This document shows positions 13,331 to 32,836 of a stretch of DNA of 34,571 bases, piece by piece. A model generated the notes under the pieces. That model saw nothing but the letters and a program-made list of their open reading frames with translations, was not told the DNA's origin and searched no databases. The translations under genes were made by a program, and so were the position numbers. Positions within the stretch are counted from its first letter, which is position 1, and each line of letters opens with the position of its first letter. Origin of the DNA: Aeromicrobium sp. (lineage in GTDB: Bacteria; Actinomycetota; Actinomycetes; Propionibacteriales; Nocardioidaceae); NCBI GenBank assembly GCA_025965435.1, contig JAOPWZ010000051.1, forward strand, positions 1 to 34,571, given 5' to 3'.

Positions 13331-13336
13331 GTGCTC

Positions 13337-14380
13337 ATGTCTCTCGTACCCCAGCTGCTCGGCGCCGTGCGAGGTGCCAGTGCCCGTTCGGTCATGCGGA
13401 TGCCGAGGCCGGTCATCGCCCGCCTCGCCGGGTCGCCGGTCGTGGTCGACGGACGGACGCTCGACCCCGAGATGCAGCTGCTGCTCAGGTTGCAGCATCT
13501 CGAGGGACCCGCGGCCGAGAGCGTTGCGATCAGCCGGGGGCGCAAGATCATCGTGTCCTCCTCGCGGCTCGCGGGCGGCAACCCACCGATCGGGGCCGTC
13601 ACGGACCGCACGATCGACGGCCCGGGTGGCCCGCTCGGACTGCGGTTCTACACGCCGCGGGGACTGTCCGGCCGCTCACCCGCCCTGTTGTTCTTCCACG
13701 GCGGCGGCTGGGTCTACGGCGACCTGGAGAGTCACGACGCGACCTGCCGGTTCCTGGCGGAGCAGGCACAGGTCCGCGTCGTCGCGGTCGACTACCGGCT
13801 GGCGCCCGAGGCACCGTTCCCGGCGGCCGTCGACGACGCCATGGCGGCCTGGACCTGGATCACCGAGCACGCGCAGGGCCTCGGCATCGATCCCGGGCGG
13901 ATCGCCGTCGGCGGCGACAGTGCGGGCGGCAACCTGGCGGCGATCGTCGCGCAGCAGACCGTTGCGGCCGGTGGCCCGAGCCCGGCCTTCCAGCTGCTGA
14001 TCTATCCCGCGACCGACTTCGCCGAGAAGGCGCCCAGCCGGCGCACGTACGCGAAGGGCTTCTTCCTCACCCAGGCGTTCATGGACCTCGCCGAGGAGAA
14101 CTACCTGGTCGGTGGCGAGGACCGGTCGGACCCGCGCCTGTCACCCCTCTACGGCGATGTCACCGGTGTGGCCCCCGCCTACGTCGTCACCGCGGGCTTC
14201 GATCCACTGCTCGACGAGGGCGACGCGTACGCCGAGAAGCTGCGCGCGGCCGGGGTCCCGGTCGAGCACGTCTGCGAGGACGGCCTGATCCACGGCTTCA
14301 TCAACATGGTCGCGATCGGCCGCACAGCCCCCAAGGCCGCCCGCCGGGCCGCGGCCGCCCTCCAGCGCGGCCTCTCCTGA
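13337..14380 (+). CDS. Alpha/beta hydrolase, HSL-family esterase/lipase
   Basis: A 347-aa hydrolase of the hormone-sensitive-lipase group. The oxyanion-hole motif [10 protein letters not shown], the nucleophile motif GDSAGGN, the acid in DPLLDEG and the histidine in LIHGFINM make a complete Ser-Asp-His triad. It would cleave short-chain esters; the natural substrate is unknown. No signal peptide is evident, so it is cytoplasmic. ATG 13337 is chosen over GTG 13331 because TAGCGT lies 6 nt before it. Its stop TGA at 14378-14380 begins the first half-site of the repeat array that follows. Confidence 0.9.
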
Positions 14381-14574
14381 CCCGTCCCATCCGCTGACGG
14401 GTCACTTCCCGCCCGCTGACGGGTCGGTTGAGGCCCGGTGAAGGGTCGGTTGAGGCCCGCTGACGGGTCATTTGTCGGCGCTCGACGGTCGGCTGGTGCC
14501 GCCAAGCGAGCGCGGACCGACTCGTCACGGGGCCAGGAGCGACGCGTCACGGGGCCGGAAGTGACCCGTCAGCG
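14378..14574. repeat. Mirrored array of 22-nt repeats between convergent genes
   Basis: TGACGGGTC-type cores recur every 22 nt in forward orientation at 14395, 14417, 14439 (TGAAGGGTC) and 14461, then in reverse orientation at 14519-14527, 14541-14549 and 14563-14571, again 22 nt apart. The outer copies are perfect 18-bp inverted arms (14392-14409 and 14557-14574). The two gene stop codons, TGA at 14378-14380 and TGA at 14571-14569 (minus), both lie in half-sites. Possible roles are a bidirectional terminator or a multimeric protein-binding site. There is no unique-spacer pattern, so this is not CRISPR. Confidence 0.8.
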
Positions 14575-15378
14575 CTGGTAGAGCGTGTCCTTGGCGTGCT
14601 CGGTGAAGCCGAGGTTGCGGTAGACCTTCAGGGCAGGGGCGTTGTCGCCCTCGACGTACAGGTCGACGACCGCGACGCCGCGCTCGTGCAGGTGCCGCAG
14701 CCCTCGGGCCGTCAGCGCCGTGCCGAGCCCGCCGCCCTGGGCGTCCGGATCGATGCCGACGACGTAGACCTCGCCGATCCCGTCCTCGATCTTCGTCCAG
14801 TGGAAGCCGACGACCTCCCCGTCGCGCTCGGCGATGAACAGACCCGCAGGGTCGAACCACTCGGACGCCATGCGGCGATCGAGGTCCGCGCGGTCCATAG
14901 CGCCCTGCTCGGGGTGGTGCGCGAAGGCACGGGCGTTGACGGCGACGACCCGGTCGGCGTCGTCGGGGGCATAGGTGCGCAGCACGACCCCGTCGGGCAC
15001 CCGCTCGGGCTCCGGGGGCCCGTCGAACGTCAGCCTCAGCACCAGCAGGGTCCGTTCGACCGTCAGGCCGGCCGACGCCGCGAGGGCCTGTGCCGCGGGC
15101 AGGTCGCCGTGCGCCCAGAAGTGCTCCTCCCCGTCGGCGAGGAGCTCGTCGAGGATGCGGCGCCCGATGCCTGCCCGCCGTCGATCGGGGTCGACCACGA
15201 TCTCGACCGGCGCGTCGCCGACGGCGTAGGCCGCCGCCACGATCGTCCCGTCGGGCGCGGACTGGTGGACGATGACGCGTGCGCGCGCGCCGTCGCGAAG
15301 GGCGAACAGGCTGGCCTCGTTGAACGGGGCGACGCCATCGGCGCGGGTCGCCCGGTCGGCGAGGTCGATCAGGCTCAT
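14569..15378 (-). CDS. mshD: Mycothiol synthase (acetyltransferase) MshD
   Basis: A 269-aa protein with two tandem GNAT domains. The first includes VEIVVDPDRRRAGIGRRI (acetyl-CoA loop); the second includes VYVVGIDPDAQGGGLGTAL and the LYVEGDNAPALKVYRNLGF ending typical of MshD. It acetylates Cys-GlcN-Ins with acetyl-CoA in the last step of mycothiol synthesis, the main redox thiol of actinobacteria. Its ATG (15376-15378) overlaps the stop of the upstream accD gene in ATGA, so the two are translationally coupled. The stop codon lies inside a 22-nt repeat unit. Confidence 0.93.
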   Translation of the reverse strand: MSLIDLADRATRADGVAPFNEASLFALRDGARARVIVHQSAPDGTIVAAAYAVGDAPVEIVVDPDRRRAGIGRRILDELLADGEEHFWAHGDLPAAQALAASAGLTVERTLLVLRLTFDGPPEPERVPDGVVLRTYAPDDADRVVAVNARAFAHHPEQGAMDRADLDRRMASEWFDPAGLFIAERDGEVVGFHWTKIEDGIGEVYVVGIDPDAQGGGLGTALTARGLRHLHERGVAVVDLYVEGDNAPALKVYRNLGFTEHAKDTLYQR

Positions 15379-16799
15379 CGGGCCCTCAGCGCCACGAGCT
15401 GGGCACCGATCTCGGCGGCCATGGCGCGCGCGAACGACTCGGAGGTGTCGCCGGGAGGCTCCGGGACGATGTGGTGCACGGTGCCGTTCTCGAACAGGTC
15501 GAGGGCTCCCACCCGCTGCGCCTCGGCCATCTCCGCGGCGTGCTCGAGGTCGCCGTGGACGATCGCGCTGGCTCCCTCGGGGGGCAGTGGTGAGAGCCAG
15601 GCGTTCTCGGCGGCGATGACGACGTCGGCGGGCAGGAGCGCGAGCGCCCCTCCGCCGCAGCCCTGGCCCAGCAGCACCGACACGGTGGGCACCTTCATGG
15701 TCGACATCCAGCCGATGCACCGGGCGATCTCGCCCGCGATCGCCCCCTGCTCCGCCTCCGGAGACAGCTCGGCCCCCGGGGTGTCGATGATCGACACCAG
15801 GGGCAGCCGCAGCTCGTTGGCCAGCCGCATGCCGCGCCGGGCCTCCCGCAGTGCTGCCGGCCCCATCGGCTTGAAGCGCGTCTGCGTCGTCCGGTCCTGG
15901 CCGATCACGACGCACGGCTGACCGTCCAGCCGCGCGAGGGCCACGATCATGGCGCTGTCGCGCTCGCCCTTCTCGGTTCCCTGCAGGCGCAGGGTCGCAT
16001 CGCTGCCGTAGCGCAGGACCTCGCGGACGCCCGCACGCCGAGACGACCGGGTGATCTGGATCGAGTCCCACGCACTGCGCTCACGGTGCACCTCGGCGGT
16101 GCGGAGCTCGCGGGTCTGGCGGGTCGGCGGATCCACGAGCAGGCTCAGTGCGCGGTCGACCAGCAGGGGCAGCTCGTCGGGAAGGACGACCGCGTCGATG
16201 ATGCCGCGGTCGGCGAGGTTCTCGGCGGTCTGCACGCCGGGCGGGAACGGCTTGCCCTCCATGAGCTCGTAGACCTTGGGACCCAGGAACCCGATGAGGG
16301 CGCCGGGCTCCGCGATGGTGATGTGCGCGAGCGATCCCCACGATGCGAAGACGCCGCCGGTCGTGGGATGACGCAGGTAGATCAGGTAGGGGAGTCCGGC
16401 CGCGCGGTGGTCCATGATCGCCCGGGTGATGTCGATCATGTGGACGAAGGCCGGGGTGCCCTCCTGCATGCGGGTGCCTCCGGAGGCGGTCGTCGCCAGC
16501 ACCGGGATGCCCTCGGCGGTCGCCCGCCGCACGGCCGACCCGATACGCATCGCGGCGGCGCGGCCGATCGATCCGGCCAGGAACCGGAACTCGTTGACGA
16601 CGACCGCGACGGGCCGGCCGCGCATCAGGCCGCGTCCGGTCAGGACGGACTCATCGGTGCCGGAACGCTCCGCGGCCGCCGCGAGCTCCTGCTGGTACGC
16701 CGGATCGAGGCCCGACCGGTCGACCGGCTCGTCCCACGACTCGAACGATCCCTCGTCGAGGACGAGATCCAGGAGACCCTGCGCGGTGAGATGAGCCAT
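15375..16799 (-). CDS. Acetyl-CoA carboxylase carboxyltransferase, fused beta/alpha (AccD3-like)
   Basis: A 474-aa carboxyltransferase combining both crotonase-fold halves. The beta-like half carries ASGGTRMQEGTPAF, TTGGVFASWGS and IGFLGPKVYELM; the alpha-like half carries SIIDTPGAELSPEAEQGAIA and GQGCGGGALALL. It would transfer carboxylate from biotin to acetyl-CoA (or another acyl-CoA). The N-terminal Cys4 zinc finger of Escherichia coli AccD is not seen, as in mycobacterial AccD3, its likely closest relative. It lies 29 nt after glnR on the same strand and overlaps mshD; no biotin carboxylase subunit is in the window. Confidence 0.85.
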   Translation of the reverse strand: MAHLTAQGLLDLVLDEGSFESWDEPVDRSGLDPAYQQELAAAAERSGTDESVLTGRGLMRGRPVAVVVNEFRFLAGSIGRAAAMRIGSAVRRATAEGIPVLATTASGGTRMQEGTPAFVHMIDITRAIMDHRAAGLPYLIYLRHPTTGGVFASWGSLAHITIAEPGALIGFLGPKVYELMEGKPFPPGVQTAENLADRGIIDAVVLPDELPLLVDRALSLLVDPPTRQTRELRTAEVHRERSAWDSIQITRSSRRAGVREVLRYGSDATLRLQGTEKGERDSAMIVALARLDGQPCVVIGQDRTTQTRFKPMGPAALREARRGMRLANELRLPLVSIIDTPGAELSPEAEQGAIAGEIARCIGWMSTMKVPTVSVLLGQGCGGGALALLPADVVIAAENAWLSPLPPEGASAIVHGDLEHAAEMAEAQRVGALDLFENGTVHHIVPEPPGDTSESFARAMAAEIGAQLVALRAR

Positions 16800-31652: not shown

Positions 31653-32057
31653 ATGCTGAACATGCACGTGAGCGTCGAAGGACTCGGCGAGTACCTGCGT
31701 GAGCAGCGCAGCCAGGCGCAGATGTCGCTTCGCCAGCTCGCCGAGCTGACGGACGTGTCCAATCCGTACCTCAGCCAGATTGAGCGCGGACTGCGTCGGC
31801 CATCGGCAGAGGTCCTGCAGCAGATCGCCAAGGCGCTCAGGATCTCCGCCGAGTCGCTCTACGTTCGCGCCGGCATCCTCGACGCCGACGAGAGCGGAGC
31901 CCGCATGGTCGAGGACGCCATCGCCCTCGACCAGCGGCTCACCGAGCGTCAGAAGAGCGCGCTGCTCGACATCTACCGCTCGTTCGTCGGCACCGCCGAG
32001 GCGACCGACACCGAGCTGGCCACCACCGTGACTGAAGCCAACCAGGAGGAAAAATGA
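31653..32057 (+). CDS. XRE-family transcriptional regulator (Rv0474 type)
   Basis: About 134 aa. A helix-turn-helix (LREQRSQAQMSLRQLAEL and VSNPYLSQIERGLRRPS) is followed by the short C-terminal helical part DADESGARMVEDAIALDQRL. Mycobacteria have an equivalent regulator next to hbhA. ATG 31653 has GGAGG (31641-31645) at 7 nt; the in-frame ATG 31647 would be too close. Its TGA overlaps the hbhA-like ATG as ATGA, so the two are co-translated. It probably controls its own promoter. Confidence 0.85.
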   Translation: MLNMHVSVEGLGEYLREQRSQAQMSLRQLAELTDVSNPYLSQIERGLRRPSAEVLQQIAKALRISAESLYVRAGILDADESGARMVEDAIALDQRLTERQKSALLDIYRSFVGTAEATDTELATTVTEANQEEK

Positions 32058-32836
32058 CCATCACCGACACCATCGCGACCCAGGTCAAATCGCTCGTCGA
32101 CGACGTCAGGGGACTGCCCGAGTCCTTCCAGAAGGACGTCGCCGATCTGCAGAAGCAGGCCCAGGGGCTCGCGCAGCTCGCCATGGGCACCGCGACCAGC
32201 ACCTACTCCGACTTCGCCAAGCGGAGCGAGGACTTCGTCGCCAAGGCCGACGACTTCGTCACCAAGGCCAAGGGCCTCAACGTCGACGACATCCGCAAGT
32301 CGGCTGACGGCTTCTTCGACAAGACCGAGGACAGCGTGGAGGTGGCCCTCGAAGAGGTCGCCAAGCAGGCCAAGGTCCTCGCGGCCGACGCCCAGAAGCT
32401 CGCCTACGCGTATGTGTCCGTCGCCAAGGCGCAGGTCACCAGGGTGACGTCGAAGGCGCCGACGACCGCCCGCAAGGCGGCCGAGAAGGTCGACACGACG
32501 GTCAAGAAGGTCCCGGAGCCGGCCAAGCGGGCTCCCGCGGCCAAGAAGGCCCCGACGGCCAAGAAGGCTCCTGCCAAGAAGGCCCCGGCCAAGAAGGCGT
32601 CGGCAGCCGCGAAGAAGACGGCCTCGACCTCCTCGGCGGCGGCCAAGAAGACGGCCTCGACCTCCTCGGCGGCGGCCAAGAAGACGGCCTCGACCACGTC
32701 GACGGCGGCCAAGAAGACCGCTTCGACCTCCTCGACGGCAGCCAAGAAGGCCCCGGCCAAGGCTGCTCCGGCGAAGAAGGCCCCGGCGAAGACCACTGAG
32801 GCAGCGGCGACGAAGGCTCCCACCACGGACTCCTGA
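32054..32836 (+). CDS. HbhA-like Lys/Ala-rich coiled-coil protein
   Basis: A 260-aa protein. Residues 1-125 are helical and rich in Lys, Ala and Asp, likely a coiled coil (LPESFQKDVADLQKQAQGLA). From about residue 130 it is a Lys-Ala-Pro-rich tail, as in mycobacterial heparin-binding haemagglutinin HbhA, where the tail binds heparan sulfate. Residues 187-230 are four tandem 11-residue units (KKTASTSSAAA type, 33 nt each). There is no signal peptide, as in HbhA. An adhesin or a nucleoid-binding histone-like role are both possible; the neighbours support the former. Confidence 0.82.
   Translation: MTITDTIATQVKSLVDDVRGLPESFQKDVADLQKQAQGLAQLAMGTATSTYSDFAKRSEDFVAKADDFVTKAKGLNVDDIRKSADGFFDKTEDSVEVALEEVAKQAKVLAADAQKLAYAYVSVAKAQVTRVTSKAPTTARKAAEKVDTTVKKVPEPAKRAPAAKKAPTAKKAPAKKAPAKKASAAAKKTASTSSAAAKKTASTSSAAAKKTASTTSTAAKKTASTSSTAAKKAPAKAAPAKKAPAKTTEAAATKAPTTDS
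32612..32743 (+). repeat. Four tandem 33-nt repeats inside the hbhA-like gene
   Basis: Units start at 32612, 32645, 32678 and 32711 and encode KKTASTSSAAA with minor changes (TTS, TSST). The first two are nearly identical, so recombination or slippage could alter tail length by 11 residues without shifting the frame. Confidence 0.85.

Follow-up and report, generated by a model that had tools for sequence, protein, structure and literature searches.

The window, the whole stretch of Aeromicrobium sp. DNA that was analysed (34,571 nt; G and L numbers below are our labels for genomes and loci), contains two convergent genes with an inverted array of 22-nt repeats between them at 14378-14574. The upstream gene encodes an alpha/beta hydrolase, on which the LipP1 model scores under its cut-off, and the facing gene encodes mycothiol synthase. 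The genome is incomplete (2.15 Mb, 58.8% complete). The locus is composed of the following features:

13331-14380, forward strand: upstream convergent gene, alpha/beta hydrolase (esterase/lipase-like), Abhydrolase_3 match
14378-14380, forward strand: esterase stop codon, outside any in-register unit
14392-14409, forward strand: outer forward arm, the first 18 nt of unit F1 (CGCTGACGGGTCACTTCC)
14392-14479, forward strand: forward array, units F1-F4, cores at 14395, 14417, 14439 and 14461, step 22
14480-14508, no strand: central stretch separating the arms; a decayed core resembling the forward ones lies near 14482
14509-14574, reverse strand: reverse array, three units, cores at 14519, 14541 and 14563, step 22
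14557-14574, reverse strand: outer reverse arm, exactly complementary to 14392-14409; the mshD stop (complement 14569-14571) lies in its CGCTGA
14569-15462, reverse strand: mshD, mycothiol synthase, facing convergent gene, TIGR03448 above cut-off (274.9 bits), start codon not settled

The forward cores read TGACGGGTC at 14395, 14417 and 14461 and TGAAGGGTC at 14439, and they face the reverse cores GACTCGTCA, GACGCGTCA and GACCCGTCA at 14519, 14541 and 14563, the step always being 22 nt. A sequence-only reading of the same DNA had described exactly these four forward and three reverse cores at a strict 22-nt step, as well as perfect 18-bp end arms, and both descriptions are confirmed: 14392-14409 and 14557-14574 are exact reverse complements. 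The first forward unit and the last reverse unit are the only two that share this 18-bp match, and single changes occur in three of the seven cores (one of four forward, two of three reverse). The same reading had placed both stop codons inside half-sites. This is correct for mshD, whose stop falls in the last unit, but not for the esterase, whose TGA opens TGACCCGTC, a stretch with a core of the reverse type that starts 17 nt ahead of the first forward core and lies outside the 22-nt register. The esterase also ends in TGACC in several array-free relatives. Elsewhere in the window, positions 32054-32836 encode a 260-aa protein whose long, repetitive tail is rich in Ala and Lys and is encoded by tandem repeats of 33 nt and 15 nt.

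A clade-specific gene-end repeat is dispersed in Aeromicrobium, and the window array is one of its copies. BLASTN with the window array results in matches in 8 of 58 genomes, its own included, all of them Aeromicrobium, with 9 matches on four contigs of its own genome and 27 in G023. Arrays of G012 and G029 used as queries match 5 and 4 of the 49 genus genomes, respectively, and find 28 and 27 matches in the genome they come from. A unit profile built from sequence alone (26 double units) matches 24 of the 49 Aeromicrobium genomes (E 0.01), of which 13 have at least six matches and 11 have one to five weak ones. Counted as matches, several per array, the 13 genomes contain 8 (G000), 6 (G003), 10 (G008), 69 (G012), 40 (G013), 21 (G023), 6 (G027), 52 (G029), 19 (G033), 95 (G034), 7 (G063), 70 (G064) and 21 (G069), those of G003 and G063 all having E above 1e-4. 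Family-wide, 12 of 245 Nocardioidaceae genomes are matched, all Aeromicrobium and thus 1 of 26 genera (E 1e-4, with filters that lose weak matches). The idea of a dispersed repeat element is therefore borne out, as other loci in the genome and the genus carry units. Plasmid (72,556) and phage (50,697) records contain no DNA similar to the array, Rfam 15 gives no match in window positions 14000-15000 up to E 5 or in six loci up to E 0.1, and searches of open-licence literature yielded no account of the gap array repeat.

Individual arrays are placed at gene ends. A loose pattern gave 142 clusters, many of them chance matches inside genes, and these were cleaned to 103 arms of 2-12 head-to-tail units. 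Among the arms, which come from similarity-found loci, 93 follow closely on the end of a gene read in the same sense as the arm, at an offset of -6 to 74 nt, and 10 do not. An independent view comes from 400 kb each of G023 and G034, in which genes were called by codon frequency, with a script that took three window genes as its first training set and was extended from there, so that small genes may be overlooked and a few contexts misassigned. Gaps shorter than 30 nt enter the counts without a scan. Here, tandem arrays of several families occupy 8 of 120 convergent gaps versus 1 of 629 others (p 2.8e-6), or 8 of 120 versus 2 of 629 (p 1.2e-5) when a weaker score limit admits a weak 24-nt repeat. 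The eight include one 29-nt and two 31-nt families; 21/22-nt arrays alone account for 5 of 120 convergent and 1 of 629 other gaps (p 5e-4). Profile matches in these 800 kb fall at six loci, all of them gaps, five convergent and one co-directional. The gene-end setting with two facing arms, as read from the window, is thus supported. Even where just one of the two neighbouring genes is directed towards the array (L013, L028, L030, L164, L169, L181), the far arm can be present, as an RNA stem would need.

Further observations concern the surroundings of the arms. A C-rich sense strand is frequent between the stop and the outermost unit, for example CCCCACCCCCAA (G012, G029, G034, G027). In G034, contig C1:460244-460457 (joined from L213-L232) carries a third unit, CGTTTCGACAAGCTCAACGGGC, at a 29-nt step in a convergent gap. 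At L031:1317-2312, a nitrilase-like gene (CN_hydrolase) of about 1 kb lies between two well kept eight-unit arms. Genes also lie between the arms at L183:2734-3660 and L036:2574-3437, in matching gaps of two genomes and in opposite orientation; the L183 gene is an AbiEi_4 match and the L036 gene has no Pfam match, the two being similar by eye.

The sequence-only reading had proposed that the array expanded from stop-containing sites; such expansion could be local growth of each gene's own stop region by slippage. The TGA of a unit is indeed a real stop in 26 of the 93 arms (offset -6, where CGCTGA provides the last codon and the stop), whereas CGCTGA ends 39 of the 751 background genes in the two 400-kb stretches, and CGCTGA closes mshD in several array-free relatives too. 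However, one unit recurs behind many unrelated genes and is lineage-specific throughout, which argues for spread rather than growth from each stop, and we consider local slippage very improbable. Two related ideas were rejected. With a 22-nt step, successive units would bring TGA into every reading frame, yet arrays of this kind also occur in lineages whose step of 21 nt is divisible by three; and the outermost unit does not behave as a backup in-frame stop, its offsets having no clear frame preference (26/24/17).

In the arrays, a forward arm of head-to-tail units faces a reverse arm, with one inversion per array. The step is 22 nt in G000, G023, G027 and G008, 21 nt in G012, G029 and G034, and both in G013. 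A skeleton, CGCTGAcG.G....TT.cCG, is common to the units; lineages differ at positions 9 and 11-14 and by one base in the linker. Units are common to many loci within a lineage and are spelled differently between lineages throughout. In arms of three or more units (from the 103 cleaned arms), TGA is retained in 0.97 (G012) and 0.93 (G029) of outermost units versus 0.54 and 0.45 of those inside (p below 5e-5), making the outermost unit the best kept in these two genomes, with no significant difference in G034 (p 0.18) or G023 (p 0.20). Retention extends to outermost units whose TGA is not the gene's stop (0.93 of 67). Two unit subtypes occur together in G012 (L156-L174), where GCGCG is found in 0.86 of outermost units versus 0.56 (p 1e-4), an enrichment not seen in G029, and where neighbouring units are alike in subtype more than expected (0.68 versus 0.43). 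The core subtype correlates with linker bases, most strongly with the base after the core. A single unit folds slightly better than its shuffles (z -0.3 to -2.0, best of 14 offsets), too weakly for a stable small hairpin, a candidate that we rejected.

As a whole, the array has a strong predicted RNA fold. Positions 14375-14577 reach -136.3 kcal/mol versus a shuffle mean of -98.0 (sd 4.5), with none of 200 shuffles as good (z -8.5), and the opposite strand has a z of -7.0. Array length ranges from about 97 to 390 nt (39 arrays), and a slight palindromic tendency is seen in the central 22 nt (0.469 versus 0.408, p 0.011). A G+C-rich stem followed by a T run, the form of a U-tract terminator, occurs at 0 sites in 14200-14750. 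To our knowledge, U-tract terminators are scarce in high-G+C actinobacteria.

Our preferred reading, held tentatively at a probability of about 0.4, is that the array acts as a bidirectional transcript-end boundary formed by a lineage-specific, REP-like gene-end repeat. Transcription from either convergent gene would enter the inverted array, the array RNA would fold back into a long stem, and this stem could stop the transcript or stabilise its 3′ end and bar read-through into the facing gene. This reading is favoured because of the relation to gene ends, the fold and the hairpins that some relatives have in the same gap. The data show the array's place, orientation and dispersal, a strong predicted fold and a change of spelling from lineage to lineage; that RNA ends at the array, that the fold rather than a bound protein would be the cause, and that selection keeps the array at all are inferred.

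The behaviour of the two arms speaks both for and against such a boundary stem. Unit numbers of the facing arms correlate across 44 two-armed arrays (rho 0.64, and 0.83 in G012; L031 left out), which speaks for it, while they are uncorrelated within G029 or G023, which speaks against it. Also against it, the arms do not covary within genomes: an arm's own partner is no more complementary to it than the arms of other arrays are (permutation p 0.27 to 1.0), and a hairpin kept by compensation is accordingly not seen. These tests used 39 chosen two-armed arrays, among which the ends of L167, L185 and L190 were set off the unit, and 31 arrays with G-U pairs allowed, excluding L013, L041, L167, L185 and L190 (first letters not CG/GG) and three of G027. 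One arm alone is detected in 13 of 57 arrays; in L011, L017, L019, L022 and L183, one or more units do appear on the far side or past an insert, so at most eight arrays are truly one-armed. The units of one-arm-detected arrays are near consensus (0.88 versus 0.68 mismatches). The lack of a U-tract and the arms of L031, about 1 kb apart, likewise count against a boundary stem.

Spacing between the arms provides a further test. In 43 arrays, the innermost forward-reverse distances have a best period of 10.5-10.6 bp (R 0.82-0.83), a strength unequalled in 200,000 uniform random sets, in which arrays are treated as independent; when each matched gap contributes a single array (n 25), R averages 0.80. 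The 43 come from 47 arrays, of which four lacked a clean pair (L011, L013, L014, L024); the 47 include no locus from G003, G013 or G033 and none that is one-armed or split. The suggestion of the sequence-only reading that the spacing is near whole helical turns thus gains support, as arm distances are quantised at about 10.5 bp. For the 22-nt type, 14 of 14 distances fall on 54+22k within 3 nt, and for the 21-nt type, 20 of 29 fall on 54+21k within 1 nt. Six of the nine off-lattice distances of the latter are about half a unit, or one turn, away (p 0.005, in a test chosen post hoc). The lattice part of the distances can arise by whole-unit growth round a common 54-nt core, so only the half-unit class, spotted after the fact, speaks for helix phasing as such.

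An RNA stem does not explain spacing tied to the DNA helix, and this counts against the boundary stem. The units may instead be phased double-stranded sites for a putative lineage-specific DNA-binding protein that sits along one face of the helix and serves as a roadblock or insulator from both sides, with the lineage-wide change in spelling resulting from co-evolution of sites and protein. A bound protein is favoured because of the helical spacing, the lack of arm covariation and the lineage-wide spelling, and we regard it as possible but doubtful. Either step, 21 or 22 nt, comes close to two turns of the helix, arm distances are quantised and include the half-unit class, the skeleton is kept while positions 9 and 11-14 vary by lineage, units of one-arm-detected arrays stay near consensus, and the outermost unit is best kept in G012 and G029. 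On the other side, whole-unit growth round the 54-nt core fits 20 of 29 (21-nt) and 14 of 14 (22-nt) distances, the random sets treat arrays as independent, and forward and reverse unit numbers correlate overall. No binding protein was found, and we know of no protein that binds the unit. A broader version, in which a putative fast-evolving protein on helically phased inverted arrays would mark gene-end boundary sites genome-wide as a bidirectional insulator, seems unlikely; under it, 17 to 19 places (G029, G012) would change spelling together while the places at convergent ends stay.

Relatives show what the gap looks like with and without the array. The esterase/mshD pair is present in 25 of 30 loci, the window's own included, with stops at most 32 nt apart in 18, 62 nt apart in G033 and 111 to 248 nt apart in G030, G023, G029, G004, G000 and G012. 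The 18 short gaps belong to 18 of the 24 relatives with the pair; 17 of them are without units, and the 32-nt gap of G013 carries two. Profile matches in this gap occur at 5 of the 30 loci (G000, G012, G029, G013, G023), and in G033 units are seen by eye. Units at other loci and in the same gap of some relatives thus agree with what the sequence-only reading expected of a repeat element, but most relatives have none in this gap. Since their stops lie close together without units, the array is dispensable, and the unit-free short gaps of 17 relatives also speak against a boundary stem. Of the 17 gaps that are array-free and no longer than 32 nt, 11 were tested for folding, as was that of G013; five gaps of at most 1 nt (other than that of G035) and the overlap of G026 hold nothing foldable. 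In four of the 11, the fold is better than that of 97% of the shuffles (combined p 0.003), and the other seven have no hairpin beyond chance, again against the boundary stem. At mshD 3′ ends (L045-L061), a small stop-to-stop hairpin is present in some array-free species.

In G004, the esterase/mshD gap contains an unrelated second hairpin family with compensatory changes, which speaks for a boundary at this place. This family consists of GCGGTGA..TA units at 30-31 nt, forward facing reverse (G004, G009, G032, G061, G033), and is found in 5 of 149 family genomes (E 1e-6). The central stretch, which runs from GCGGTGA to TCACCGC, measures 51 nt at 13 of 13 distinct places (20 loci) with the best anchors by eye; a script with loose pairing returned this length for just 6 of 12 loci, and the by-eye length was used for later alignment. 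The 13 stretches (L233:1568-1618, plus L234-L240, L243-L245, L248 and L249) align without gaps. Both sides have changed in 12 of 21 pairs, with a covariation of 0.284 versus 0.114 shuffled and 0.02-0.10 slid; within G004 alone it is weak (p 0.08, five arrays). A model of the family matches 61 of 293 genomes of the order, in 4 of 37 genera (E 1e-4, the E-values being rough). The loci tried have no Rfam match, and 12 of the 20 best loci are convergent.

The dispensability of the array favours it being a passenger: a repeat, selfish or neutral, that moves from one gene end to another because insertions are least harmful there, that is homogenised in spelling by copying within each genome, and that has no function at gene ends. 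We think this rather improbable. It fits the array-free esterase/mshD pair of most relatives, the patchy distribution (at least six matches in 13 of 49 genus genomes), the units common to loci within a lineage and the genes that have inserted between arms. GCGCG in the outermost units of G012 is what end growth or conversion could give, although G029 lacks this pattern. Against a passenger, places are common to genomes: 18 matched gap groups have loci from at least two genomes, and 9 of these join 22-nt and 21-nt types. Such spread would not necessarily produce strict sense orientation or helical spacing. As for a mover, neither a RAYT nor a plasmid or phage copy was found; the RAYT/Y1_Tnp transposase (PF01797) is absent from all 49 genus genomes (0/49), with a control search positive in 5 of 14, and on this ground RAYT-driven REP spread was rejected.

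Several known systems resemble the array in part. Like bidirectional intrinsic terminators, it is an inverted repeat between two stops with a strong fold on both strands; unlike them, it has repeated units, a length of about 97 to 390 nt, no U-tract and arms that do not co-vary. BIME-2 elements are gyrase-binding repeats at convergent ends, similar in place and repeat nature, but for gyrase, a universal enzyme, sites spelled differently from lineage to lineage would be unexpected. MIRU repeats overlap stop codons, as the array repeat can (a neighbour's stop falls inside it in 26 of 93 arms), and are longer and located between co-directional genes. REP/BIME elements are described, in the passages of PMC3733652 that treat them, as short dispersed extragenic repeats, often species-specific and often in opposite orientation, placed mostly downstream of genes, between convergent or co-directional ones; head-to-tail REP pairs are given there as absent, under-represented or negligible. 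The array repeat is like these GTAG- and CGTC-tagged elements in having many dispersed extragenic copies per genome, and unlike them in its head-to-tail units at a fixed 21-22 nt, its single inversion per array and the lack of a RAYT gene in the 49 genus genomes. CGTC is present in the reverse-strand core, but by eye not as an unpaired tag of the stem. As two tested features (RAYT and unit arrangement) fail, we do not file the array as REP despite its REP/BIME-like form. The word 'Actinobacteria' is absent from the main text of PMC3733652, and a 2025 survey tabulates REPs for some Actinomycetota, the words Aeromicrobium and Nocardioides being absent from its main text (PMC12306157). Abundant intergenic head-to-tail short direct repeats are reported for the Beggiatoaceae, with the unit TAACTGA (PMC4679880); going by that paper's abstract, these are set apart from the array by another unit and another lineage.

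How the transcripts of facing genes are separated in high-G+C actinobacteria is poorly mapped. The array repeat tends to keep its places and helical spacing while swapping its spelling genome-wide, and in this way it provides a natural experiment. Sister species that have different units, or none, at one and the same gene pair would allow both a boundary function and a possible co-evolving protein to be tested.
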